In this document: piece after piece, positions 43,166-55,465 of the stretch | Layout: every line of letters starts with the position of its first letter | Numbering within the stretch: position 1 is the stretch's first letter | Source of the DNA: Streptomyces phaeolivaceus | GTDB lineage: Bacteria > Actinomycetota > Actinomycetes > Streptomycetales > Streptomycetaceae | DNA length: 64,000 nucleotides | Assembly: GCF_009184865.1 (NCBI RefSeq) | Contig: NZ_CP045096.1 | Location: 8,804,001-8,868,000 of the forward strand | Direction of reading: 5' to 3' | Notes under the pieces: generated by a model | What the model was told of the DNA's origin: nothing | Database searches by the model: none | Seen by the model: only the letters and a program-made list of their open reading frames with translations | Position numbers and translations under genes: made by a program

Positions 43166-44077
43166 GTGGAGTCGAGGGCAGGCCGGCACGGAAATCTGCT
43201 GGCCATCAGTGATCTGCACATCGGCTATCCCGAGAACCGCGCCCTCGTCGAACGGATGCGACCGGAGACCGACGACGACTGGCTCCTGGTGGCCGGCGAC
43301 GTCTCCGAGACGGTCGCCGACATCCGCTGGGCCCTGGAGACTCTCGCGAACCGCTTCGCCAAGGTCGTCTGGGCGCCGGGCAACCACGAACTGTGGACCC
43401 ACCCCAGCGAGACCGTCCCGTACAAGGGCGTCGAGCGCTACGAACACCTCGTCTCCGTCTGCCGCGAACTGGATGTCGTCACCCCCGAGGACCCGTACCC
43501 CCTCTGGGAGGGTCCCGGCGGCCCGGCGGTGATCGCTCCGCTTTTCCTGCTGTACGACTACTCGTTCCTGCCCAAGGGCTGCGCCACGAAGGAAGAGGGC
43601 CTGGAGTACGCGCACGGCACCGGTGTGGTCTGCACCGACGAGCACGTGCTGTACCCCGACCCGTATCCGAGCCGCGACGACTGGTGCCGCGCCCGGGTCG
43701 CCGAGACCGAGCGCAGGCTCGCCGAACTGCCGCCCGATCTGCCCACGGTGCTGGTCAACCACTACCCCCTGGACCGGCACCCGACGGACGTCCTGCGCTA
43801 CCCCGAGTTCGCCATGTGGTGCGGCACGGAACTGACGGCCGACTGGCACCGGCGCTTCCGCGTCGAGGTCATGGTCTACGGCCATCTGCACATCCCGCGG
43901 ACCACCTGGCTGGACGGGGTCCGCTTCGAAGAGGTGTCCGTGGGTTACCCCCGCGAGTGGCGGCCCCGTCCGGAACCGCCGGGCAGGCTGCGCCGCATTC
44001 TGCCGATGGAGGTCCAAGCCGGTGATCGAGGAACTGCTTCCGGGAGCGGTCGTGGTCGTGGAGGCGCACGGCCCTGA
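43166..44077 (+). CDS. pptH: Metallophosphoesterase, PptH-like phosphopantetheinyl hydrolase
   Basis: A 303-residue calcineurin-like enzyme: ISDLHIGYPENR, VAGDVSE, WAPGNHELW, NHYPLD and YGHLHIPR supply the two-metal site. Its 3' end overlaps the PptT-type phosphopantetheinyl transferase gene by 56 nt. The same pair is adjacent in Mycobacterium tuberculosis, where the metallophosphoesterase (PptH) strips phosphopantetheine from carrier proteins and opposes PptT. By order, overlap and partner type I assign this as the PptH homologue. The start is the GTG at 43166 after AAGGGAG; upstream in-frame starts lack such a site. Confidence 0.8.
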   Translation: MESRAGRHGNLLAISDLHIGYPENRALVERMRPETDDDWLLVAGDVSETVADIRWALETLANRFAKVVWAPGNHELWTHPSETVPYKGVERYEHLVSVCRELDVVTPEDPYPLWEGPGGPAVIAPLFLLYDYSFLPKGCATKEEGLEYAHGTGVVCTDEHVLYPDPYPSRDDWCRARVAETERRLAELPPDLPTVLVNHYPLDRHPTDVLRYPEFAMWCGTELTADWHRRFRVEVMVYGHLHIPRTTWLDGVRFEEVSVGYPREWRPRPEPPGRLRRILPMEVQAGDRGTASGSGRGRGGARP

Positions 44078-44726
44078 CACGGCCGCCGTCGAGGGGATCG
44101 AGCTGTACCCCGAGGAGGAGGCGGTCGTGGCACGGGCGGTGGCCAAGCGGCGCCGTGAGTTCACCGTCGTCCGCGCCTGCGCGCGCCGGGCGATGGAGAA
44201 GCTCGGCGTGGCGCCGCGCGCGATCGTGCCCGGTGACCGCGGCGCCCCCGGCTGGCCGGACGGACTGACCGGCAGCATGACCCACTGCGAGGGGTTCGCC
44301 GCCGCAGCGCTGGTCCGCGTCGGTGACCTCGCCTCCCTCGGCGTGGACGCCGAACCCCACGACGCCCTGCCCGAGGGCGTCCTGACGGCGATCGCCCTCC
44401 CGGCGGAGGAGATCCGACTGCGCCGTCTGACCGCCGACCACCCCTCGGTCCACTGGGACCGGCTGCTCTTCAGTGCCAAGGAGTCCGTGTACAAGGCATG
44501 GTTCCCGCTCACCGGGCGGTGGCTGGACTTCTCGGAGGCCGACATCGAGGTGACCGTCGACCCCGGCGGTCGCTCCGGCGCCCTGCGCGCCGAACTCCTC
44601 GTACCAGGACCGGTGGTGGACGGTCGTCGTATCGACGCCTTCGACGGACGCTGGACCGTCCGGCAGGGGCTGGTGGCGACGGCGGTTTCGGTTCCCTTCC
44701 CGACGGAGGACGAGGACACCAGATGA
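44022..44726 (+). CDS. pptT: 4'-phosphopantetheinyl transferase, PptT/Sfp type
   Basis: A 234-residue Sfp-superfamily enzyme that converts apo to holo carrier proteins of fatty-acid, polyketide or peptide synthases. GSMTHCEGFAAAALVR, LGVDAEPHDALPEGVL and HWDRLLFSAKESVYKAWFPLTGRWLDF contain the CoA-binding and Mg-binding residues (Asp/Glu of VDAE, Glu of AKES, Lys of YKAW) and match the PptT subgroup closely. The GTG start has GGAGG nine bases upstream inside the PptH gene. The stop overlaps the isoprenyl synthase start (ATGA). It probably serves secondary-metabolite carrier proteins elsewhere in the genome. Confidence 0.93.
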   Translation: MIEELLPGAVVVVEAHGPDTAAVEGIELYPEEEAVVARAVAKRRREFTVVRACARRAMEKLGVAPRAIVPGDRGAPGWPDGLTGSMTHCEGFAAAALVRVGDLASLGVDAEPHDALPEGVLTAIALPAEEIRLRRLTADHPSVHWDRLLFSAKESVYKAWFPLTGRWLDFSEADIEVTVDPGGRSGALRAELLVPGPVVDGRRIDAFDGRWTVRQGLVATAVSVPFPTEDEDTR

Positions 44727-45694
44727 ACCCGCTCGCCTATGTGGAGCTGCACAGACGGATATCGCCCGACATCGACGCGGAGATAGCGACCGCCCTGGAG
44801 AGCCTCGGGCCCTCGTCCGGCGCGGTACGGAGATCCATCACCGGGCTGCTCGGCCATCAGCGGATGAGATACCCGCTGTCCGTGCTCCCCCTGCTCGTGC
44901 ACGCCGCCGAGACGGGCGCCCCCGGACCGGCCGTCCCCCTGTCGGCCGTCCATGTGCTGTGGTGGACCTCCGCCTGCTACCTCGACGACCTCGCCGACGG
45001 CCACGGCAGACACACCCCCGCCGGACTCGGCCCGGACGAGGCGCTCCTGGCGTCCTTCCTCAGCGCCCAGGCCCTGCCCATCAGGATCGTCCAGGCCCAA
45101 CCGGTCCCGGACGCCGTGCGCAACGCCCTCACCGTCGAGATCGTCAACTGCTGCATCGACGCCGTGGAAGGCCAGTTGCGGGATCTGCGCGGCGACGGGC
45201 GCGACACCTCGCCCGCCGCGGCCGTCGCCACCTACCACGGAAAATCCGGTGTCCCGTTCGGGATGATCACGGCGATGGCCGGGATACTGGCCGACGCCGG
45301 AACCGAACGCGTCGCACTGTGGCGGGAGTTCGGGGAGGTGTTCGGGATTCTCTGGCAGCTCTTCAACGACCAGGAGGACCTGCTCACCGGCCGCGACGAG
45401 GATCTGCGCAACGGCACGGCCACCTATCTCCTCGCCTGCGCCCTGGAGGAGACCCCACTCCGATCACGGGGGCGGATCGTGGAACTCGCGGTCGAGGCAC
45501 GCGGTTCCGGGCGCGCCCGCACGGAACTCCGCACGCTGCTCCTCACCCCCGCGGTGCTCCGTCGCTTCGAGAAGGGCCTGACGAAGTTCCGTGACGACGC
45601 GCACCAGGTGCTCGACGAACTGGGCGGCGACGAGGCCTACTTGCCGGCCCTGCGGCAGATGGTGGACCAGGCCGCCGGAATGCACCTGACCTAG
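44723..45694 (+). CDS. Polyprenyl synthetase family protein (isoprenyl diphosphate synthase-like)
   Basis: A 323-residue all-alpha class I isoprenoid synthase. The first Asp-rich motif is DDLAD (88-92), close to the usual DDxxD. The second is NDQED (215-219), where the first Asp is Asn. YHGKSGVPF (about 171-179) matches the conserved Lys-Thr/Ser region. The canonical FARM arginine pair after the first motif is not evident, so it could make a short allylic diphosphate or act as a terpene-synthase-like enzyme. The start overlaps the PptT stop by four bases (ATGA), so the three genes are one transcript. It converges on the FAD oxidoreductase module. Confidence 0.82.
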   Translation: MNPLAYVELHRRISPDIDAEIATALESLGPSSGAVRRSITGLLGHQRMRYPLSVLPLLVHAAETGAPGPAVPLSAVHVLWWTSACYLDDLADGHGRHTPAGLGPDEALLASFLSAQALPIRIVQAQPVPDAVRNALTVEIVNCCIDAVEGQLRDLRGDGRDTSPAAAVATYHGKSGVPFGMITAMAGILADAGTERVALWREFGEVFGILWQLFNDQEDLLTGRDEDLRNGTATYLLACALEETPLRSRGRIVELAVEARGSGRARTELRTLLLTPAVLRRFEKGLTKFRDDAHQVLDELGGDEAYLPALRQMVDQAAGMHLT

Positions 45695-45772: not shown

Positions 45773-46000
45773 TCACCGCTCCGGGCACCAGCTCCGCAGC
45801 AGCCGGAAGAACTCCTCCTCGTTGCCCGCCAGTCCGGCCGCCGCCAGCGCCCGCTCCGCCTCGGCGAGCGCGGCGGGTGGCACCACGGGTGGTCGGCGGG
45901 ACTCCGGCGGCCCGTCGAAGGCTGCTCGTACGGTCCCCAGCAGCCGCAGATAGGCCTGGACGGCGGCACGCTCGCGGTCGGTCAGTACGGCGGTCGGCAT
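45773..46000 (-). CDS. Small conserved-looking protein, 75 residues
   Basis: I do not recognise a family. The 75 residues are mostly helical (LTDRERAAVQAYLRLLG, AALAEAERALAAAGL, NEEEFFRLLRSWCPER) with a Pro-rich middle. An ATG preceded by GGGGAGAG, good codon bias and a clean stop support a real gene. It lies 150 nt downstream of the FAD oxidoreductase on the same strand and so may be its last co-transcribed gene. Confidence 0.65.
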   Translation of the reverse strand: MPTAVLTDRERAAVQAYLRLLGTVRAAFDGPPESRRPPVVPPAALAEAERALAAAGLAGNEEEFFRLLRSWCPER

Positions 46001-46150
46001 CGAACGGCTCTCCCCTGGTCGGATCGGCGAAACTCCGTGCCGCCCCGACGGACGGGGGGCACCCTCCCAGCTTGCCGTCCACCACTGACAATCCCGCTCT
46101 CCCGCACGCCGATGTCGCCCGGCGCTCGAGGCGCGGGGGAGGCTGCCCCC

Positions 46151-47575
46151 TCAGGTGGTCGCGCCCAGCACCGTCTCCCGCTCATGGTCCGTCAGGGGCG
46201 GTTCCGGGAGCGGCGGTTTGACCGGGCCCCGCAGCACCGCCAGGACCACCTCCGGCCGGACGAGGGCGCCGACGGGCTCGGTGAGGGTGACCACGCCGAG
46301 ATACGCCTTGAAGACCAGGGGCCGGCCCAGCGCGGTAAGGATCAGCCGCTCCAGATAACGGCCGAAGAGCTTCCGTGCCGCGTTCGGCCGCTTGCCGATC
46401 GCCTCCGGGTAGCGGATGTCCGCGTTGGTCGCCAGCTCCCAGGCGAGCGCCACCGGCACCGCCACGGCCTTCTGCACCCGGCGCGCGAGCCCCGGCGCCG
46501 ACAGACCGTGCGCGGCGACCCGGTCGCGCAGCACCACGGCGCCCTGCGCGGCGACGGACATGCCGTGGCCGTAGATCGGGTTGTACGTGGCGACCGAGTC
46601 GCCGAGCGCGACGAACCCCTCGGGCCAGCCGGACACCTTCTCGAAGTAGCGCCGCCGGTTGATCGTGCTGCGGGTGACCACCACGTCCGTCAGGGGCTCG
46701 GCACGCGCGATCAGCTCACCCACCAGCGGGTGCCTGATGTCGCGCGCGAACGTCTCGAACTCCTCGGCGAGGGCGGTCGGCTGGCCTCCCCGGGTGCCCG
46801 ACAGCGTCACCAGCCAGCGCCCGCCCTCGATCGGCACCAGGGTCGCGCTGCGCCCCGGCACCGGCCGCGACCCGTCCGGCTGCACATTGACCACCGGGTA
46901 CTCCTCGGTGCCCGCGGGCGCCCGGAAGACCCGGGTGGCGTACACGAGCCCGGAGTCGACCTCCTCCATCGGCGCGGGCGCCACCCCGAGCGCGTCCAGC
47001 CACGCGGTGCCCCGCGAACCGCGCCCGGCGCAGTCCACCACCAGATCGGCGCCGAGCACCCGCTCCTCGCCGTCGACGGAACGCACCCGCAGCCCCGTCA
47101 CCCGGGAGGCGTCGCCCGCCAGGCCGAGGATCTCGGTGCGGTCGAGGACGGTGACCCGGGGCCCGGCGAGGAGGTGGGCGCGGACGACCGACTCCAGCAG
47201 CTCACGGCTGCACGCGATCATGAACTCCATCTCGGGCCAGCGCCGCACCCAGCCCTGGGCCGACAGGGAGACCAGCCCGGTCGGCAGCGGGATCCGCCGG
47301 GCACCGGCCGCCAGCCAGGCGTCCGTGACCCCCGGCAGCAGCTCCTCCATCGCGCGCGCCCCGCCGGACCACAGCAGATGGGCGTGCCGGGCCTGGGGCA
47401 CGCCCTTGCGGGGCGCGGGCCCCTCGGGCAGCGCGTCGCGTTCGACGACGGTGACCTCGGCGTGCTCGCGCAGCGCGGCGGCGGCCAGCAGACCGGCCAG
47501 GCCCGCGCCGACGACGACGGCCCGCCGGGGAGCCGTGGCCTCGGTGTCGCTCGGGCCGCTAACGGGTTCTTTCAT
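46151..47575 (-). CDS. FAD-dependent oxidoreductase/monooxygenase
   Basis: A 474-residue flavoprotein of the aromatic hydroxylase / geranylgeranyl-reductase-like group. The N-terminal dinucleotide motif is AVVVGAGLAGLLAA (about 18-31), and the second FAD motif is ALGDSVATYNPIYGHGMSVAAQGA (about 310-333). VPQARHAHLLWSGG is the segment often seen in squalene-epoxidase-like and halogenase-like flavoenzymes. It overlaps the membrane-protein gene by 17 nt and is the enzymatic output of the XRE-ImmA-MAB_1171c set. With an isoprenyl synthase across the terminator it may oxidise an isoprenoid; that is inference. Confidence 0.85.
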   Translation of the reverse strand: MKEPVSGPSDTEATAPRRAVVVGAGLAGLLAAAALREHAEVTVVERDALPEGPAPRKGVPQARHAHLLWSGGARAMEELLPGVTDAWLAAGARRIPLPTGLVSLSAQGWVRRWPEMEFMIACSRELLESVVRAHLLAGPRVTVLDRTEILGLAGDASRVTGLRVRSVDGEERVLGADLVVDCAGRGSRGTAWLDALGVAPAPMEEVDSGLVYATRVFRAPAGTEEYPVVNVQPDGSRPVPGRSATLVPIEGGRWLVTLSGTRGGQPTALAEEFETFARDIRHPLVGELIARAEPLTDVVVTRSTINRRRYFEKVSGWPEGFVALGDSVATYNPIYGHGMSVAAQGAVVLRDRVAAHGLSAPGLARRVQKAVAVPVALAWELATNADIRYPEAIGKRPNAARKLFGRYLERLILTALGRPLVFKAYLGVVTLTEPVGALVRPEVVLAVLRGPVKPPLPEPPLTDHERETVLGATT

Positions 47576-48767
47576 GGAAGTCGCTCTCTGACCTGGTCGC
47601 GGCGGCCCATTCACGGGCGGCCGCTACGACGGGTGACTGACGCAGGGCGATGGACATCCGTACGAGGTCACGGGGGTTCTCGGTGGGCGTGGCGGGGGCG
47701 TCGGCCGTGGCCGAGCTGATGACCCGGCCCTCCGGATCGTCCTCCCTGGCCCGTACCGCCGCCGTCACCATCGCCGCGTCGGCCTCGGCCCGCGCCTGCA
47801 CGGGCTCGGAGCCCGCCGCGACGGCCGCGTCGTACGCCTTGGCCCGTACCTCGGAGTCGAAGTACGGGTACAGACTGAGCATGCCGTCGTGGATGTCGGA
47901 CTCCCGCTGTGTCATCTGGAGCCTCGCCGGGGCCCACCAGGAGATCCGCACCTCGTGGCTCGCCTGGGCCCATACGGGGCGCAACTCCCGCCACAGCGGG
48001 CCGAGTCGACGGTACATGGACCAGATGGTCCAGGAGTCGCCGAGGCGCTCCCCGGCCAGCGGCAGACAGAAGCCGACCGCGCAGACCTGGGCGCCGACGG
48101 ACGACAGCACGGGGGCGACATAGGTGCTCAGATGGTCCAGGTCGCCGCCCTGCCAGCGGGTGACCACGGCGACCAGTTTGACCGCCGCGAACGGCACGTT
48201 GAGCAGGAAGCCGAACGCGATGATCAGCAGCCCGGCGCGCAGCCAGCCGCGGACCTGGAGCGCCCAGCGCCAGCACATGACGTTCATGGCGACGCCCGCG
48301 ACGGTGAACCCGATCAGATAGAGCACGATCATCTCGCGCAGGAACGGGGTGTTGGCGTAGTACGTGTCGAAGTCCCGCACCCGCTCCACGGGCGCCTCGC
48401 CGAGCACGAACAGCACCACGATCGCCGCGCACACCGCGCCGTACCCGGCGATCCAGCGGCGGGAGAGCCGGCGGGTCGTCTCGGGCGGGCCGCCCCGCCA
48501 GTTGGTGATCAGCACCAGACAGGAGCCGCTGAAGGCGCTCAGCAGGAGGTAGACGACGGCCGCCGAGATGTTGGTGACACCGGTGGCGCGGTTGACCTCG
48601 GTGATCGTCGGCGGCGCGGCGAAGCAGAAGACCAGGGCGGCCAGTGTCATCAGCGCGCACACGGATCTGATCAGCGGGTCGCGCCGGTTCCGCAGCAGCG
48701 CGGGCGTCTTCGAGGCGAGCGCGATCGTCATCGCGACGCCCGGGAGGTAGTAGCTGGGCCCGTCCAT
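47559..48767 (-). CDS. MAB_1171c-family membrane protein
   Basis: A 402-residue protein with about seven membrane helices in the first 230 residues (VAMTIALASKTPALL, ICALMTLAALVFCFA-like segments, NISAAVVYLLLSAFSGSCLVL, MIVLYLIGFTVAGVAM, GLLIIAFGFLLNVPFAAVKLV, VGAQVCAVGFCLPLAG). A cytosolic C-terminal domain follows (LWRELRPVWAQASHEVRISWWAPAR...DGMLSLYPYFDS). This is the layout of the putative transporter family named after MAB_1171c, usually found beside XRE and ImmA/IrrE genes. The role is unknown; it may be a sensor for the protease-repressor pair. It overlaps the FAD gene by 17 nt and starts 45 nt after the protease stop. Confidence 0.8.
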   Translation of the reverse strand: MDGPSYYLPGVAMTIALASKTPALLRNRRDPLIRSVCALMTLAALVFCFAAPPTITEVNRATGVTNISAAVVYLLLSAFSGSCLVLITNWRGGPPETTRRLSRRWIAGYGAVCAAIVVLFVLGEAPVERVRDFDTYYANTPFLREMIVLYLIGFTVAGVAMNVMCWRWALQVRGWLRAGLLIIAFGFLLNVPFAAVKLVAVVTRWQGGDLDHLSTYVAPVLSSVGAQVCAVGFCLPLAGERLGDSWTIWSMYRRLGPLWRELRPVWAQASHEVRISWWAPARLQMTQRESDIHDGMLSLYPYFDSEVRAKAYDAAVAAGSEPVQARAEADAAMVTAAVRAREDDPEGRVISSATADAPATPTENPRDLVRMSIALRQSPVVAAAREWAAATRSESDFHERTR

Positions 48768-48812
48768 GTCCGCTGCGTCTCTGCGTCTCTCGCGTCTCGG
48801 CGTTCCGGCCGC

Positions 48813-49361
48813 TCAGCCCTGCGGGCCGCGGTAGCCCAGCGAGGCACCGATACGGCCCGCCAGGTGGTCGCGGCGCACTGGCCCGCGCAGTGCCGAACCG
48901 GCGAGCCAGGTACGGCACTTGCTGGCCAGCAGCAGTCCGAAGCTCTCGGCGTCCTGCTCGTCCGTGAGATCGAAACGGGTACGGGCGGCGACCTTCAGCA
49001 CGGTCGCCGGCAGATCGGCGTCCTCGCTCAATAAACGCGCGGCGACGGCGGCGCCGTCCACCTGCCGGCCGCAGTGCCCGGCCTGCATGTGCCACAGCTC
49101 GTGGCCGAGGATCACCAGCTGGTGGTCGGGTGCGGTGCGTTCCTCGATGACGACGAGATCCTGTTCGGCCATGTCCAGCCACAGCCCACTGGCCGTACCC
49201 GGCGGGAACGCGGCCGTACGGTAGTGGACGGGGCGGCCACGGCGTCTGCTCATGGCGTCGCACAGGGCGCCGTACAGGTCGGCGGGGTCCGCCGGTGCCG
49301 GCAGGTCGATCTCGCCGACCAACTCGCCGCACAGACGGCGCATTTCCTTTCCGATGCCCAC
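48813..49361 (-). CDS. ImmA/IrrE-type metallopeptidase with a TTA codon
   Basis: A 182-residue zinc protease of the ImmA/IrrE (COG2856) family: zinc site LGHELWHMQAGH with His-87, Glu-88 and His-91, followed by an acidic third ligand region (EQDAESFGLLLASKC, Glu about 139). Family members cleave a partner XRE repressor in response to a signal, as ImmA cleaves ImmR. Codon 110 (49034-49032) is TTA, the only one I found in an intact gene here, so translation should depend on the developmental bldA tRNA. The GTG start follows GGGGGAG; it lies 13 nt after the XRE stop, so the two are co-translated. Confidence 0.87.
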   Translation of the reverse strand: MGIGKEMRRLCGELVGEIDLPAPADPADLYGALCDAMSRRRGRPVHYRTAAFPPGTASGLWLDMAEQDLVVIEERTAPDHQLVILGHELWHMQAGHCGRQVDGAAVAARLLSEDADLPATVLKVAARTRFDLTDEQDAESFGLLLASKCRTWLAGSALRGPVRRDHLAGRIGASLGYRGPQG

Positions 49362-49374
49362 AGATCTCCCCCGG

Positions 49375-50031
49375 TCAGGACTCGGGCCGCTTGACGCTCT
49401 CCAGCAGCATGTCCAGCCACTCCGCGACCTTGTCGCGGTGCTGGTCGGTGGGCAGCTGGGCCGCCCGCCAGGCGATGGAGCGCACACCGTGGTTCTGCAG
49501 CAGCCGCCGCAGCGGGTCGTCCGCGGCCTCGGCCGCCGCCCGCTCACGGTCGGCGAGCTGCTGGAGGAGCTCCTGTTCGGTCCGCATCAGGGCGCTCGCC
49601 AGCGCCTCGGGATCCTCGGCGGTGAGGAAGCCGGCGTGCACTCTGAAGAAGCGCTGGATCGCGTCGCAGTGCTCCATCGTGGGGCGCCGGTCGCCGTTGA
49701 TCAGGGCACCCGCCTGCTGGCGCGACATCCCGGCGCCGTCGGCGATCTCCTGCTGGGTGTACTTCCGGCCGCCCGGCTTGAGCCGGGTGCGCCGCAGCAG
49801 GCCCAGACGCTGCAGAAAGCGGGCCTGGATGTCCGGTTCCCCGGCGGGCTGCCCGCTGAGCAGGGCCTTCACCACCGTCTCCGGCACACCCGAGGCGACC
49901 GAGAGCCGACGGACGTCGAAGACCTCCGAGTGCCGTACGCGCAGCTTGTCCGCGAGCGCGGTGACACGGGCCACGACGGCCGGCAGCAGAACCGTCGCCG
50001 CGGCGTCCGGAACCTCGAAGCCATCCGTCAC
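49375..50031 (-). CDS. XRE-family repressor, probable ImmA/IrrE partner
   Basis: A 218-residue regulator. The N-terminal about 75 residues (VVARVTALADKLRVRHSEVFDVRRLSVASGVPETVVKALLSG) already look like one helical DNA-binding unit. A second XRE helix-turn-helix follows (KYTQQEIADGAGMSRQQAGALINGDRRPTMEHCDAIQRFF), and the C-terminus is a long acidic coiled region (LASALMRTEQELLQQLADRERAAAEAADDPLRRLL). The GTG start has TAGGAGA seven bases upstream. First gene of the XRE-ImmA-membrane-FAD operon. A 22-bp palindrome about 145 nt upstream is its likely operator, and the C-terminal region the likely protease target. Confidence 0.86.
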   Translation of the reverse strand: MTDGFEVPDAAATVLLPAVVARVTALADKLRVRHSEVFDVRRLSVASGVPETVVKALLSGQPAGEPDIQARFLQRLGLLRRTRLKPGGRKYTQQEIADGAGMSRQQAGALINGDRRPTMEHCDAIQRFFRVHAGFLTAEDPEALASALMRTEQELLQQLADRERAAAEAADDPLRRLLQNHGVRSIAWRAAQLPTDQHRDKVAEWLDMLLESVKRPES

Positions 50032-50173
50032 CGACAGGTCTCCTACGTCTCTCTCAGGCCAATTTCGCGGTACTGCGGAATCCGTGGATCCAAGCCTGGC
50101 GCGAGACCCTGGTCCCGGCAAGTACACCGTGAACTGCGGGGAGACTAGCGGTTGTGTCGAACTCACATCCAGG

Positions 50174-50195
50174 TCTCGCCACAACTGTGGCGAGA
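50174..50195. promoter_or_regulatory. 22-bp perfect inverted repeat, operator candidate
   Basis: TCTCGCCACA and TGTGGCGAGA are perfect 10-bp arms separated by AC, in the divergent gap between the XRE and MmyB-like genes. It is placed to block both promoters and is the best candidate operator for the XRE protein. Confidence 0.7.
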
Positions 50196-50229
50196 TTCAG
50201 CCGTCAACCGCCGCCAAATGCCACGATAG

Positions 50230-50259
50230 TTGACACGCCTCCGGCCGGGGCAGCAGGAT
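50230..50259 (+). promoter_or_regulatory. Candidate promoter of the MmyB-like gene
   Basis: TTGACA (50230-50235), an 18-bp spacer and CAGGAT (50254-50259) resemble a housekeeping streptomycete promoter about 45 nt before the start codon and 35 nt from the 22-bp palindrome. Confidence 0.5.
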
Positions 50260-50305
50260 CAAGGCGCCGCGAGAAGGCCGCATAGGCAAGAGGGGTGACC
50301 TCCCG

Positions 50306-50989
50306 ATGGCATATCAGGCAGGTGGGCGGCGGTCGGTACCGCGGTCCGTCCCCGACAGTCTCGAAACCCGGGACGCGCAGGCGTATCTCCAGGACTACGC
50401 CGTGCTGCTGGATTCCGTCCTGTTCCCGTCCGTCGTCCTCGACCACCGCTGGGACGTCGTCGTCGCCAACGCCGCGTTCCGTTCGCTCTTCGGCAATGTG
50501 GGCCCGCATCCGACGGCCATGCCCGACGACAACTTCCTCCGCTTCGTGCTCTTCCACCCGGACGCCGCCACCGTCCTCGGCGACCACGAGGCCGGCTGGT
50601 GCCTGCCGATGCTGGCCCACTTCGCCGCCGCGGTGGAGCACCACCCCCAGGACCGGGGTCTGCAGTCCATCCGCCGGGACATCGCCCAGGACCCGATCAT
50701 GGACGCCGCCTACCGCCACGGCCTCCCGCACTGGCTCCGCACGGTCGGCCCCGCGGCCGGCCGGCACGACGGCGCCGTCCGCCCCGTGGTCCACCCGGAC
50801 CCCCGCTGGGGCGCCACCGACTGCCGGGTCGTCGGCGAGACCCCCGACACCCTCCGCGAGCTGGGCTACCACCGTATGACCCTCGTCCTGCGCGAGGTCG
50901 ACCGCCCGTCCCACCCCGTACGCAGACCGCGCCGCCCCCGGCACGCCGCGATCGGCCATCTCAGCGTGGTGCCCTCCCCCGAGCGGTGA
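50306..50989 (+). CDS. Stand-alone MmyB-type ligand-binding domain protein
   Basis: A 227-residue protein matching the C-terminal PAS-like ligand-binding domain of MmyB-family XRE regulators: DYAVLLDSVLFPSVVLDHRWDVVVANAAFRSLFG, NFLRFVLFHPDA, and a terminal LRELGYHRMTLVLREVD. The usual N-terminal helix-turn-helix of about 80 residues is absent. The start ATG has GAGGGGTGACC upstream, and the preceding DNA holds a promoter, not a lost domain, so this looks like a native half-protein. It may bind the same ligand as a full regulator, or act with the divergent XRE protein. Confidence 0.8.
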   Translation: MAYQAGGRRSVPRSVPDSLETRDAQAYLQDYAVLLDSVLFPSVVLDHRWDVVVANAAFRSLFGNVGPHPTAMPDDNFLRFVLFHPDAATVLGDHEAGWCLPMLAHFAAAVEHHPQDRGLQSIRRDIAQDPIMDAAYRHGLPHWLRTVGPAAGRHDGAVRPVVHPDPRWGATDCRVVGETPDTLRELGYHRMTLVLREVDRPSHPVRRPRRPRHAAIGHLSVVPSPER

Positions 50990-51041: not shown

Positions 51042-51851
51042 TCAATCCTTGTCCAGGGGAACGCCCCGCTCCTTGTCCCGGGGAACCCCCCGTTTGGCCG
51101 CCTGTATCTGCTCGTACACATGCGTCCGCAGCTCCGCGAAGCGCGGGGACACCCGGGTGTGCAACTGATCGCGCCCGGCGGGCAGATCGATCTTCAGCTG
51201 CTCCCGTACGACGGTGGGGGAGGCGGAGAGCACCAGGACCCGTTCGCCGAGGTAGACGGCCTCGTCGATGTCATGGGTGACGAAGAGGACCGTCATGCCC
51301 CGCTCCCGCCACAGGCCCCGCACCAGATCCTCCAGATCGGCGCGGGTCTGCGCGTCCACCGCCGCGAACGGCTCGTCCATCAGCAGCACCTCCGGCTCGT
51401 ACGCCAGCGCGCGGGCGATGGCGACCCGCTGCTGCATCCCGCCGGACAGCTGCCACGGGTACGCGCCCGCCGCGTCGGACAGTCCGACCGAGGCGAGCGC
51501 GTCGTCCACCAGGGCGCGCCGCCGGTCCCTGCTCGACTTCTTCTGTTTCAGCGGGAGTTCGACGTTGTCGCGGACCCGCATCCAGGGGAACAGACTGCGC
51601 CCGTACTCCTGGAAGACGACGGCCATGCCCGGCGGCGGCCCGTCCACCGGCCGCCCCCCGAGCAGGACTTGGCCCGCCGTCGGCCTCAGCAGCCCGGCCA
51701 CGCACTTCAGCAGGGTCGTCTTGCCGCAGCCCGACGGGCCGACCAGACAGACCAGTTCACCCGGGTCGACGGTGAAGGTGAGGTCCCGCACCGCCTCCAC
51801 CCGCCGCCCGGAACCCTCGTAGACCTTCTTCAGACCCTGTACGTCCAGCAT
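51042..51851 (-). CDS. ABC transporter ATPase (SsuB/TauB/NrtD type)
   Basis: A 269-residue nucleotide-binding subunit: Walker A GPSGCGKTT (38-46), signature LSGGMQQRVAIARAL, Walker B LLMDEPFAAVDAQTR and a switch His in VTHDIDEA. It powers import by the two adjacent permeases. The extreme C-terminus repeats a motif (RGVPRDKERGVPLDK), reflecting a short DNA duplication near the stop. Fourth gene of the binding-protein/permease/permease/ATPase operon. Confidence 0.93.
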   Translation of the reverse strand: MLDVQGLKKVYEGSGRRVEAVRDLTFTVDPGELVCLVGPSGCGKTTLLKCVAGLLRPTAGQVLLGGRPVDGPPPGMAVVFQEYGRSLFPWMRVRDNVELPLKQKKSSRDRRRALVDDALASVGLSDAAGAYPWQLSGGMQQRVAIARALAYEPEVLLMDEPFAAVDAQTRADLEDLVRGLWRERGMTVLFVTHDIDEAVYLGERVLVLSASPTVVREQLKIDLPAGRDQLHTRVSPRFAELRTHVYEQIQAAKRGVPRDKERGVPLDKD

Positions 51852-51874
51852 GGTCCGCCGTTCCTTGTCGAGTC

Positions 51875-52654
51875 TCACGACGACCGCCGGGAGGATGCGC
51901 GCAGCCCGTGGTACCAGCCGAGCACGCGCCGCTCGACCAGCCGGAAGACGACCGACAGCAGGAACCCGAGCAGCCCGAGGACGAGGATGCCGGTCCACAT
52001 GTCGGGGATCGCGAAACCGCGCTGGAACTGGACGATGGTGTACCCCAGTCCGTTGCTGGACGCCGTCATCTCGCTGATGACCATGAGGATGATGCCGATG
52101 GACAGCGCCTGCCGCAGCCCCGCGAAGATCTGCGGGCTCGCCGAGCGCAGCACCACGTTCCGCAGCCGGGCCGCCCCCGTGATGCCGTACGACCGGGCCG
52201 TCTCCGACAGCACGGAGTCCACCGCGCGGACGCCCTCCACGGTGTTGAGCAGGATCGGCCAGACGCAGCCGCTCGCGATGACGGCGATCTTCATCGTGTC
52301 GCCGATGCCCGCGAAGAGCATGATGACCGGGACGAGCACCGGTGGCGGGACGGCCCGCAGGAACTCCAGGACCGGTTCGCAGACCGCGCGCACCCGCCGG
52401 TAGGAGCCGATCACCGTGCCGAGCGCCACACCGACCACGGCCGCCAGCGCGTAACCGGCGGACAGCCGCAGCAGGCTGGGCAGGACGTCGCCGCGCAGCC
52501 GCTCGGCCGTCCAGACGTCCGGGAAGGCGCCGAGGATCGTCCGCAGCGGCGGCCAGTACACATCGGTGCTGTCGTCCGACGCGAGCCACCACACGACGAC
52601 CAGCAGCAGGGGGAGCGCGACCACGAACAGCGGCCGGAGCGGCAGACGGCTCAC
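51875..52654 (-). CDS. ABC transporter permease (SsuC/TauC type)
   Basis: A 259-residue six-helix permease with a conserved cytoplasmic loop (SVLSETARSYGITGAARLRNVVLRSASPQIFAGLR), typical of nitrate/sulfonate/taurine-type importers. The GTG start overlaps the preceding permease stop (GTGA). It pairs with the upstream permease as a heterodimer. Confidence 0.9.
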   Translation of the reverse strand: MSRLPLRPLFVVALPLLLVVVWWLASDDSTDVYWPPLRTILGAFPDVWTAERLRGDVLPSLLRLSAGYALAAVVGVALGTVIGSYRRVRAVCEPVLEFLRAVPPPVLVPVIMLFAGIGDTMKIAVIASGCVWPILLNTVEGVRAVDSVLSETARSYGITGAARLRNVVLRSASPQIFAGLRQALSIGIILMVISEMTASSNGLGYTIVQFQRGFAIPDMWTGILVLGLLGFLLSVVFRLVERRVLGWYHGLRASSRRSS

Positions 52655-53424
52655 ACCGCCACCTCCCCGCGCACCGACTGGTGCCAGGCCAGCGCCCGCC
52701 GCTCCACCGTGCGGGCGCCCACATTGATCAGCAGCCCCAGCAGCCCGGTGACCACCACCAGCGCGTACATCTCCGGCACCGCCTGCGAGGTCTGCGCGAC
52801 CGCGATCCGCTGGCCCAACCCCGGTGCCCCGATGACCAGTTCGGCGGTCACGGCCAGGATGAGGGCCACGGCGGCGGCCAGCCGGACACCCGTCATGACG
52901 TACGGCAGGGCGGTCGGCCACAGCACGTGCCGGACCCTGGCCCAGGTGCCCAGACCGTAGGAGCGGGCGGTCTCCTCGGCGACCGGGTCGACGTCCTGGA
53001 CGCCGTAGAGGGTCTGGATCAGGATCTGCCAGAACGACGCGTAGACCACCAGCAGCAGCACCGACCGCAGTTCGCTGCCGTAGAGGAGGACGGCGAGCGG
53101 GATCAGGGCGACCGAGGGGATCGGGCGCAGGAACTCGATCGTGGAGGCCGTCGCCTCGCGCAGATATGGTACGACGGCGAGGACGACCCCCGTCGCGATC
53201 CCGGCCGTCACGGCGATCAGCAGGCCCACCGCCCAGCCGGTGAGGGTGTCGCCGAGCGCCGTCCAGAACGTCTCGTCGGCGAGTTCGGCCGCGAGGGCGT
53301 CGGCGACCCCGCTGACCGGCGGGAGGTAGGCGTCCTCGACGAGGCCGAGTCGCGGCACCGCCTCCCACAGAGCGAGGAAGCCCGCGAGCCCGGCCGCCCC
53401 CAGGACGGCGTCGGAACCCCTCAC
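52651..53424 (-). CDS. ABC transporter permease (SsuC/TauC type)
   Basis: A 257-residue six-helix permease with EAA-type loop (DPVAEETARSYGLGTWARVRHVLWPTALPYVMTG). The GTG start overlaps the binding-protein stop (GTGA), and its own stop overlaps the next permease. Two distinct permeases instead of one homodimer is common for aromatic or nitrile-type substrates in actinobacteria. Confidence 0.9.
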   Translation of the reverse strand: MRGSDAVLGAAGLAGFLALWEAVPRLGLVEDAYLPPVSGVADALAAELADETFWTALGDTLTGWAVGLLIAVTAGIATGVVLAVVPYLREATASTIEFLRPIPSVALIPLAVLLYGSELRSVLLLVVYASFWQILIQTLYGVQDVDPVAEETARSYGLGTWARVRHVLWPTALPYVMTGVRLAAAVALILAVTAELVIGAPGLGQRIAVAQTSQAVPEMYALVVVTGLLGLLINVGARTVERRALAWHQSVRGEVAV

Positions 53425-54389
53425 GGCAGCAGCTTGTCCAGGTCGGGGGCCTTCTCGAACAGGCCGTCCTGCTGCCCGAGTTCGGCCAGCCGCTCGATGG
53501 AGGCGCGGTCCGGCTCCGCGGGCCAGCGGGGCAGGAAGACCGTCTTCAGCAGACTCTCCGGGATCTTCGTGTACGTGGTGATGATCTCCCGTACCTCGTC
53601 GGGGTGTTCATCGGCGTACGCCAGCGACTCGGCCGTGGCCTCCTGGAACTTCTTCACCAACTCCGGGTTCTTCGCGGCGTATTGCTCGGAGGTGAAGTAC
53701 ATGGCCACGGTCAGGTCCGGGGACACGTCCACGAAGTTCGACGCGAGGACCGTGCCGCCCTGCGACTTGATGGTGGCGAGCGCGGGCTCCACCACGCAGG
53801 CCGCGTCGACCTGGCCCTTGGCGAGCGCGGCCGGCATCTGGTCGAACGGCATCTCCACGTACTCGACCTTCGACGGGTCGCCGCCGTCCTTGCGGACCGA
53901 CTCGTTGACCGAGGTGTCGCAGATGTTGCCGAGGGTGTTGACCGCGACCTTCTTGCCCCCCAGCTCCTTGGCGGACTTCAGCGCGCTGCCCTTCGGCACG
54001 GCGATCTCCGCGAAGTCGGCGCCCGGCTTCCCGGTGGAGGCGACCCCGTTGACCACGGCCTTGACCGGCACGTTCTTGGACCGGGCGACCAGCAGCGAGG
54101 TCATGTTGCTGAAGCCGAAGTCGAACTGCCCGGAGACGACACCGGGCACGATCGCCGCCCCGCCCTGCGCGAGCGTCGGCTCCAGCTTCAGCCCGCGCTC
54201 GCCGTAGAAGCCCTTCTTCTCGCCCAGGTACATCGGGGCGACGTCGATGATGGGGATCACGCCCAGCTTGAGCGTGGTGGTGCCGCCGGAGGCCGAGCCC
54301 CCGCCGTCCGACCCGGAGTCGGACGAACCGCAGGCGGTCGCGGCGGTGAACAAGGTGCCGGCCGCGAGGCCGATGAGCAGACGACGCAT
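53421..54389 (-). CDS. NMT1/SsuA-like solute-binding lipoprotein
   Basis: A 322-residue lipoprotein with a signal ending TAATAC (Cys about 20), then a Gly/Ser-rich spacer and the SsuA/THI5-like fold: LKLGVIPIIDVAPMYLGEKKGFY, GQFDFGFSNMTSLLVA, KVAVNTLGNICDTSVNESV. The receptor for a small organic acid, sulfonate or similar compound. With the VanA/VanB oxygenase nearby it likely binds that enzyme's substrate. GGGGGAGTC precedes the ATG. Two IclR-type operators lie upstream. Confidence 0.9.
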   Translation of the reverse strand: MRRLLIGLAAGTLFTAATACGSSDSGSDGGGSASGGTTTLKLGVIPIIDVAPMYLGEKKGFYGERGLKLEPTLAQGGAAIVPGVVSGQFDFGFSNMTSLLVARSKNVPVKAVVNGVASTGKPGADFAEIAVPKGSALKSAKELGGKKVAVNTLGNICDTSVNESVRKDGGDPSKVEYVEMPFDQMPAALAKGQVDAACVVEPALATIKSQGGTVLASNFVDVSPDLTVAMYFTSEQYAAKNPELVKKFQEATAESLAYADEHPDEVREIITTYTKIPESLLKTVFLPRWPAEPDRASIERLAELGQQDGLFEKAPDLDKLLP

Positions 54390-54436
54390 GACTCCCCCAG
54401 ACGGGAACGCGCTTCGACGGATGTCCTCGACAGGCT

Positions 54437-54560
54437 GTGCGCAGACCGCACAGAAGTGCTCAGCCGGAAGGTAGAACGCCGTTGGGTGTGGGTCAATGGC
54501 CTTGCTGTGCAAGCGCGTTGACAGTTGCCGAAGTGTGCTCCTAGCGTGCGCAGAGCGCAC
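54437..54560. promoter_or_regulatory. Two matching 15-bp IclR-type operators
   Basis: GTGCGCAGACCGCAC (54437-54451) and GTGCGCAGAGCGCAC (54546-54560) differ at one base. The second is a perfect palindrome with 6-bp arms. They lie 109 bp apart between the divergent importer and IclR genes, and the second overlaps the IclR gene's -10. The 15-bp palindromic form suits IclR-family regulators, so autoregulation plus importer control is likely. Confidence 0.7.
54518..54547 (+). promoter_or_regulatory. Promoter of the IclR gene
   Basis: TTGACA (54518-54523), an 18-bp spacer and TAGCGT (54542-54547) form a good streptomycete housekeeping promoter 55 nt before the start, overlapping the second operator. 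Confidence 0.6.
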
Positions 54561-54601
54561 CGGCGTACGACCAGCGTCCGAGCGGCCTTCTGGAGGCGAC
54601 G

Positions 54602-55465
54602 ATGCCCGAGCGAGACCGGTTCGGCGGAGCCCGCGCACCGCACTTCGTCCGGTCCTTCGAGCGGGGCCTCGCGGTCGTCCGCGCCTTCGACGCCGAGCAC
54701 CCCGCGCTGACCCTGAGCGAGGTCGCCCGCACCTGTGAGCTGACCCGGGCCGCCGCCCGCCGCTTCCTGCTCACCCTCGTCGATCTCGGATACGTCCACA
54801 CCGACGGCCGGCTGTTCCGGCCGACCCCGCGGGTGCTCGAACTCGGCTACGCCTATCTGTCGAGCTTCACCCTCCCCGACCTCGCCCTGCCGCATCTGGA
54901 GCGGCTGGTCGCGCAGGTGGGGGAGTCGTCCTCGCTGTGCGTCCTCGACGGCGACGACATCGTGTACGTGGCGAGGGTGCCCACGAGCCGCATCATGACG
55001 GCCACGATCACCGTCGGCACCCGCTTCCCCGCCCAGGTCACCTCGGTCGGCCGGGTGATCCTCGCGCAGTTGCCGGACGAGGAGATCGACGCCCGGCTCG
55101 CCCGCGCCGACCCCGAGCCGTTCACCCGGCACACCCTCACCTCCGCCGACCGGCTCAGGGCAGAGCTGCGGCGGGTCCGGCGGCAGGGGTACGCCGTCGT
55201 CGACCAGGAACTGGAGGAGGGGCTGCGCTCGGTCGCCGCCCCGGTCCGGGACCGGGGCGGCGAGGTGGTGGCCGCCGTGAACATCCCCGTCCACGCCGGC
55301 CGCACCTCGGTCGAGTCGGTACGCCGGGATCTGCTGCCCCATCTGCTGGCCACGGTCGCCCGGATCGAGGCGGACCTGTGTGTGCCGGGGACGGCGGCGG
55401 GCCGCACCCGGGCGGCGCCGCCACCGGCCGGGCCGGGGCCCCTACAGGTCGAGCACCAGCCGTGA
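54602..55465 (+). CDS. IclR-family regulator of the importer/oxygenase locus
   Basis: A 287-residue PcaR/PobR-like IclR protein: winged helix at about 18-80 (FERGLAVVRAFDAEHPALTLSEVARTCELTRAAARRFLLTL) and an effector domain with DGDDIVYVARVPTSRI, RVILAQLPDEEI and VDQELEEGLRSVAAPVRDRGGEVVAAVN. PcaR/PobR-type members respond to protocatechuate- or hydroxybenzoate-like acids, in keeping with the Rieske oxygenase genes. GGAGG precedes the ATG. The last 24 nt overlap the 3' end of the converging vanB-like gene. Confidence 0.9.
   Translation: MPERDRFGGARAPHFVRSFERGLAVVRAFDAEHPALTLSEVARTCELTRAAARRFLLTLVDLGYVHTDGRLFRPTPRVLELGYAYLSSFTLPDLALPHLERLVAQVGESSSLCVLDGDDIVYVARVPTSRIMTATITVGTRFPAQVTSVGRVILAQLPDEEIDARLARADPEPFTRHTLTSADRLRAELRRVRRQGYAVVDQELEEGLRSVAAPVRDRGGEVVAAVNIPVHAGRTSVESVRRDLLPHLLATVARIEADLCVPGTAAGRTRAAPPPAGPGPLQVEHQP

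Follow-up and report, generated by a model that had tools for sequence, protein, structure and literature searches.

The genome of Streptomyces phaeolivaceus (10.18 Mb) carries, in the 64,000-nucleotide (nt) stretch at positions 8,804,001 to 8,868,000 of contig NZ_CP045096.1 (the whole stretch is referred to as the window), a small gene module in which an XRE regulator is followed directly by an ImmA/IrrE-like zinc protease and a seven-helix membrane protein of the MAB_1171c family. This triad, and the free-standing MmyB-like domain encoded divergently from it, are the focus of this study. The features are as follows, in window coordinates; loci are the 76 orthologous loci of the genus described below, and lengths are in amino acids (aa).

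49375-50031, minus strand: XRE regulator, 218 aa; GTG start with AGGAG upstream; HTH_3 at residues 89-134
48813-49361, minus strand: ImmA/IrrE-like zinc protease, 182 aa; GTG start; HELWH at residues 87-91, invariant E139; TTA at codon 110
47559-48767, minus strand: MAB_1171c family (DUF6545) seven-helix membrane protein; ATG start; NF042915, 132.6 bits
46151-47575, minus strand: FAD-dependent oxidoreductase (flavoenzyme), optional cargo; ATG start; PF01494 (FAD_binding_3)
45773-46000, minus strand: 75-aa protein without a family match; kept in 59 of 76 loci
50306-50989, plus strand: free-standing MmyB-like ligand-binding domain protein; PF17765 (MLTR_LBD); divergent from XRE
44723-45694, plus strand: isoprenyl synthase; PF00348, E 1.1e-6
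50174-50195, no strand: 22-bp palindrome, probable operator, core GCCACAnnTGTGGC; in 74 of 76 loci, the core precedes XRE
50202-50207, minus strand: TTGACG box, possible -35 of the XRE promoter; conserved in a 19-row alignment
50230-50259, plus strand: TTGACA, 18 nt, CAGGAT; candidate promoter for the MmyB-domain gene, suggested by the alignment

The genes for XRE, the protease, the MAB_1171c protein and the flavoenzyme were packed like one transcription unit: gaps of 13 nt (XRE to protease) and 45 nt (protease to membrane protein), and a 17-nt overlap between the membrane protein and flavoenzyme genes. Since the 75-aa gene was 150 nt beyond the flavoenzyme gene, it was not tightly packed with the others. 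A preliminary description of this DNA had proposed five minus-strand genes in this order, most of them closely spaced, a free MmyB domain beyond a 22-bp palindrome and an isoprenyl synthase facing the module. The gene order, the domain (by its PF17765 match), the palindrome and the synthase were all confirmed, while the close spacing held for the first four genes and not for the 75-aa gene.

The window protease gave no Pfam match at E≤0.1; its HExxH motif, its relatives and its fold served to assign the family. H87, E88, H91 and E139 were invariant across 48 rows, E139 being the probable third (acidic) zinc ligand. Among 48 relatives, 18 matched Peptidase_M78 weakly, the best at E 0.024, whereas the window protein gave no match to that family. 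The protein showed an IrrE/M78 fold, with PprI and CapP as the nearest folds; sequence searches of the protease and the membrane protein against solved structures yielded nothing meaningful. The XRE gene adjoined the protease gene in 62 of 62 orthologues. Known relatives of the protease have been reported to cut XRE repressors upon DNA damage signals (PMC10904395, PMC10233336, PMC2701414), and by analogy the protease may cleave the adjacent XRE protein.

The XRE protein consisted of an N-terminal extension and, from about residue 71, a part related to EspR. Comparison of its family with the EspR-like family by hhalign, using shallow profiles, gave a probability of 96.8 and E 3e-10 over 103 columns, and the window protein itself matched EspR in the PDB by phmmer at E 0.025. 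By its helix-turn-helix (HTH) and C-terminal part, this XRE thus appears to belong, distantly, with the EspR family; the XRE of a P450-bearing module in the same genome matched EspR in the PDB at 4.7e-24. Identity was 82-88% in most orthologue rows, and XRE was kept at some loci without the other module genes.

The membrane protein scored above the cut-off of the MAB_1171c model NF042915 (132.6 versus 100 bits). Its structure model, with a pLDDT of 82, showed seven long helices; the C-terminal tail comprised roughly 130-170 aa. Seven hydropathy peaks were counted in six of ten membrane-protein sequences (range, 6 to 9), the window protein alone giving six at that threshold. The modeled bundle weakly suggests a closer resemblance to receptors than to transporters, and no transporter was found among the fold matches listed, whereas the NCBI label is MAB_1171c family putative transporter. 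Five further MAB_1171c genes were present in the same genome (L009, L010, L021, L022 and L023), some of them beside enzyme genes (flavoenzyme, P450 and NUDIX).

XRE diverged from the MmyB-domain gene across a conserved palindrome with perfect arms and two central bases. Across 19 aligned intergenic regions between XRE and the MmyB-domain gene, GCCACAnnTGTGGC and two further blocks were kept; besides the window, these regions came from 18 of the first 20 loci, L061 and L070 being excluded for length. TTGACG stood 6 nt before the palindrome on the XRE strand and may mark the XRE promoter, so that a repressor bound at the palindrome could block it; a consensus promoter scan of the region found neither an XRE promoter nor one for the MmyB-domain gene. 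When the 22-bp palindrome was searched with ≤3 mismatches, the own genome contained the local site only (a reversed control pattern gave three), and a regulon based on the strict palindrome was rejected. The 14-bp core was found in 39 of 61 sampled genomes, mostly once, including some without the locus. The MmyB-domain gene was divergent from XRE in 76 of 76 loci and was more constant than the protease; the PF17765 match of its product covered residues 34-128 (E 7.6e-14), and the Pfam scan listed no HTH family.

The conservation of the module was examined in 150 genomes of the genus, including that of S. phaeolivaceus. XRE matches were found in 78, from which two distant paralogues (G062, E 1.8e-21; G099, E 8.5e-25) were dropped. 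With an orthologous protease defined as ≥66% identity (a line chosen by us), 62 genomes possessed it, one of them (G089) with a reported in-frame stop. Of the 76 loci, 8 had all three of protease, membrane protein and flavoenzyme, 17 had the first two, 38 had the protease alone (in one of them as a remnant) and 13 had none of these. No further combination was found: the membrane protein never occurred without the protease, nor the protease without XRE. At the remnant locus (L097), the match to the protease was short (43% over about 107 aa) and overlapped the XRE gene; it may be a copy in decay, and the locus was scored as protease-less in trees. On a tree of XRE and the MmyB-domain protein, the protease changed state nine times, the membrane protein five times and the flavoenzyme six times, indicating that protease and cargo came or went several times. 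The nesting of membrane protein within protease is thus suggestive but not significant, an independent-pairs test having too few informative pairs. Three of the loci were short (L052, 3.5 kb; L107, 5.0 kb; L152, 4.9 kb), and distant neighbors could be missed there.

Among the flanking genes, the 75-aa gene was present in 59 loci, a PPTase gene in 56, the flavoenzyme in 8 and the isoprenyl synthase in 3. XRE was syntenic with the PPTase gene in those 56 of 76, the protease being absent or decayed in 14. The preliminary description had placed a small metabolite pathway at the center of the module, and this was not supported because the flavoenzyme and isoprenyl synthase were rare at orthologous loci; the synthase was rejected as a part of the module. 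On the other hand, the refuting case named in that description, a neighborhood not conserved in other genomes, was not what the comparison showed: gene order was conserved outside the window, in the 76 loci as well as in a second set of named loci, the best 80 of 440 membrane-protein relatives in GTDB species genomes. Apart from one record, whose title gave only Actinobacteria, these 80 were Streptomyces; S. europaeiscabiei, S. caniscabiei and S. scabiei were among the closest. The protease and XRE were directly upstream of the membrane protein in 79 of the 80 (the exception starts at a contig end), and a flavoenzyme was nearby in 39.

Several observations concern the surroundings. The 75-aa gene persisted even where the protease and membrane protein were gone. 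In 7 of 13 inspected loci (L054, L055, L059, L060, L062, L065 and L072), an open reading frame of ~340-370 aa lay on the opposite strand between the module and the 75-aa gene; we take it to be hydrolase-like from a motif. The start of the isoprenyl synthase overlapped the stop of the PPTase gene (window 44022-45694), and the genes adjoining the MmyB-domain gene (window 51042-54638) presumably form a taurine/nitrate-type ABC transporter set.

In Streptomyces, TTA is read by the developmentally regulated bldA tRNA. Among eight genes checked in the window, TTA was found only in the protease (codon 110 from the GTG start). TTA was present in 24 of the 62 orthologous proteases, at codons 110 (13), 143 (8), 158 (2) and 82 (1), with nine changes on the tree; the majority (38 of 62) lacked it. 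Of 416 copies of nine neighboring genes, 2 had TTA (Fisher p 1.5e-21, counted by gene and uncorrected for descent). In the named loci, the counts were 36 of 79 for the protease, 6 of 80 for the membrane protein, 4 of 78 for the MmyB-domain gene and 0 for the other seven genes. General base drift does not explain this enrichment because other A-ending codons were not raised in the protease: their share was 0.044, compared with 0.023-0.070 in neighbors, and CTA occurred 4 times against 24 for TTA. Conservation of a particular position was rejected (codon 110 in 13 of 62) in favor of enrichment at the level of the gene. The developmental timing suggested previously is thus supported by comparison, since TTA codons are concentrated in the protease gene.

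The association recurred far more often than by chance in the 76 loci, in the named loci and beyond the genus. When 196 genomes of the class were scanned with profiles for the EspR-like regulator (E≤1e-15), the distant protease (E≤1e-4) and NF042915 (E≤1e-3), 38 EspR-like rows were obtained in 31 genomes. Of these rows, 32 (in 28 genomes) had a protease no more than 3 kb away, on the same strand after the EspR-like gene in 22 and on the opposite strand in 10. Protease and membrane protein were both present in 29 rows, protease only in 3 and neither in 6; in none of the 38 was the membrane protein near without the protease. Conversely, 63 of 75 membrane-protein rows had a protease within 3 kb, and 60 of 87 protease rows a membrane protein. 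Outside the genus, 27 of 31 membrane-protein rows had the protease and 24 both partners. Four of the scanned genomes (G000, G186, G219 and G401) had supplied the seeds for the regulator and protease profiles, and removal of these genomes left 34 EspR-like rows, 28 with the protease and 25 with both. In the own genome and a phylum-wide sample, a family protease was just upstream on the same strand in 29 of 37 membrane-protein genes, and in 32 after a wider look; the 37 genes remained after manual removal of duplicates from 45 rows (35 with protease), L273 and L275 being below the script threshold.

Two further arrangements were seen in this survey. In L274, L275 and L123 (same class, group f3 g3), the EspR gene was convergent with a pair of protease and DUF6545-like membrane-protein genes, the L274 copy matching PDB EspR at E 1.5e-67; among 11 canonical EspR genomes of this group, the protease was there in 6 and both partners in 5. 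In L273 (3729-5669), from another family, the EspR-like, protease and membrane-protein genes overlapped head to tail. Rv3848 was considered as the mycobacterial membrane protein beside espR and rejected, because the genes for the protease and membrane protein are convergent with espR, whereas the rv3848 stop is reported to precede the espR start (PMC3315491).

Sequence, fold and comparison together place an IrrE/CapP-fold protease with conserved zinc-ligand residues directly behind XRE; directly behind that protease comes a seven-helix membrane protein that for the most part occurs together with it. We give an even chance that the core of the module is an ImmA/ImmR-type derepression switch with an added membrane sensor. 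The seven-helix protein is the added, conserved element, and a sensor-protease-repressor chain is the most economical reading. As regards cleavage, gating, the ligand, the direction of control and the part of the MmyB-domain protein, we infer the following course. XRE would repress its own operon and the MmyB-domain gene via the palindrome. The membrane protein would sense something at the membrane and hold or release the protease via its cytoplasmic tail; the protease, once freed or activated, would cut XRE, and the operon and the MmyB-domain gene would be switched on. The optional flavoenzyme (P450 or NUDIX in sister modules of the own genome) may be cargo, making or modifying either the signal or the output. 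A developmental gate would be added by the TTA codons of the protease gene: without bldA tRNA there would be no protease, and the switch would stay shut. Of the signal-sensing circuit suggested previously, comparison thus supports the outline (the protease-repressor pair linked to a membrane protein, the conserved order and a conserved operator region common to XRE and the MmyB-domain gene) but not the metabolite pathway as its core; the underlying observation proved stronger than first described.

The protease might instead respond to a signal from inside the cell, such as single-stranded DNA or another stress, with the membrane protein as an effector or exporter under its control. PprI and CapP, the nearest folds, are reported to be activated by single-stranded DNA (PMC10904395, PMC10233336); the NCBI name is putative transporter, and a MAB_1171c mutant of Mycobacterium abscessus reportedly formed about half the biofilm (PMC8707978). 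In view of the receptor-like seven-helix model with no transporter among its listed matches (weak evidence), and of a membrane protein that at this locus never occurs without the protease, we regard this alternative as rather unlikely.

It is less probable still that protease and XRE form a type II toxin-antitoxin pair of the COG2856-Xre kind, with the rest as passenger. Makarova 2009 proposed this class (PMC2701414), many of the proteases carry the NCBI name "toxin-antitoxin system, toxin component", and a protease never found without XRE, which sometimes stands alone, fits the pattern; the constant PPTase neighborhood (56 of 76) and strongly conserved XRE (82-88% in most rows) do not, and overproduction of TnSmu1 ImmA is described as affecting the growth of E. 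coli only slightly (PMC10233336). Similarly improbable is a role of XRE as an EspR-like, chromosome-binding global regulator whose amount the protease and membrane protein merely tune. EspR is reported to be an autoregulating nucleoid-associated protein (PMC3315491), and XRE is EspR-related and kept without the other genes, but the strict palindrome occurred once in the own genome, a search that degenerate sites would escape. Phage defence was rejected: PADLOC matched XRE to CapH (E 6.8e-5) and RmrA and the flavoenzyme to C3a186 (E 0.0014), with nothing for the protease or membrane protein.

More tentatively, the sensor-protease-repressor switch may represent a widespread actinobacterial one-way relay, which we consider possible rather than probable: a G-protein-coupled receptor (GPCR)-like seven-helix receptor would directly gate an IrrE-type protease, which in turn would destroy an EspR-like repressor. 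Such a relay would differ from two-component and BlaR-type systems and be further gated by TTA in Streptomyces, and EspR of those mycobacteria keeping both partner genes would be controlled likewise. No account of the module was found in the open-licence PMC literature. Zinc proteases that cut repressors are known to respond to DNA damage or to signals from mobile elements, and BlaR1 is the known case of a route from membrane to protease; the triad supplies a testable candidate receptor and offers a partner protease for EspR-like regulators. Its protease gene, in addition, clearly illustrates how the bldA codon has arisen at several different sites within one regulatory gene.

Among known systems, ImmA/ImmR of ICEBs1 and TnSmu1 likewise has an XRE repressor gene adjoining a gene for a same-family HExxH anti-repressor protease; the present module differs in its conserved chromosomal place, outside an integrative element, and in the seven-helix gene directly behind the protease. 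Compared with IrrE(PprI)/DdrO and CapP/CapH, the window protease is shorter (182 aa) and the membrane protein is separate, and no CBASS genes were seen in the window operon. XRE-DUF397 pairs described in Streptomyces also combine XRE with a companion once called toxin-antitoxin, whereas the companion here is a zinc protease, and the Pfam scan gave no DUF397 match. By model score, the window protein is a member of the MAB_1171c family of putative transporters (NF042915, PF20182), in spite of a model leaning weakly toward a receptor-like bundle. EspR of mycobacteria is a related regulator, and EspR-like genes adjoin the same protease and membrane-protein families (29 of 38), while the window XRE has an N-terminal extension and is only distantly akin. 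BlaR1/MecR1 with BlaI/MecI parallels the proposed chain in outline, being reported to comprise a membrane sensor, a cytoplasmic zinc protease and a repressor (PMC6925264), although in the window the protease and membrane protein are encoded by separate genes and not as a fusion.
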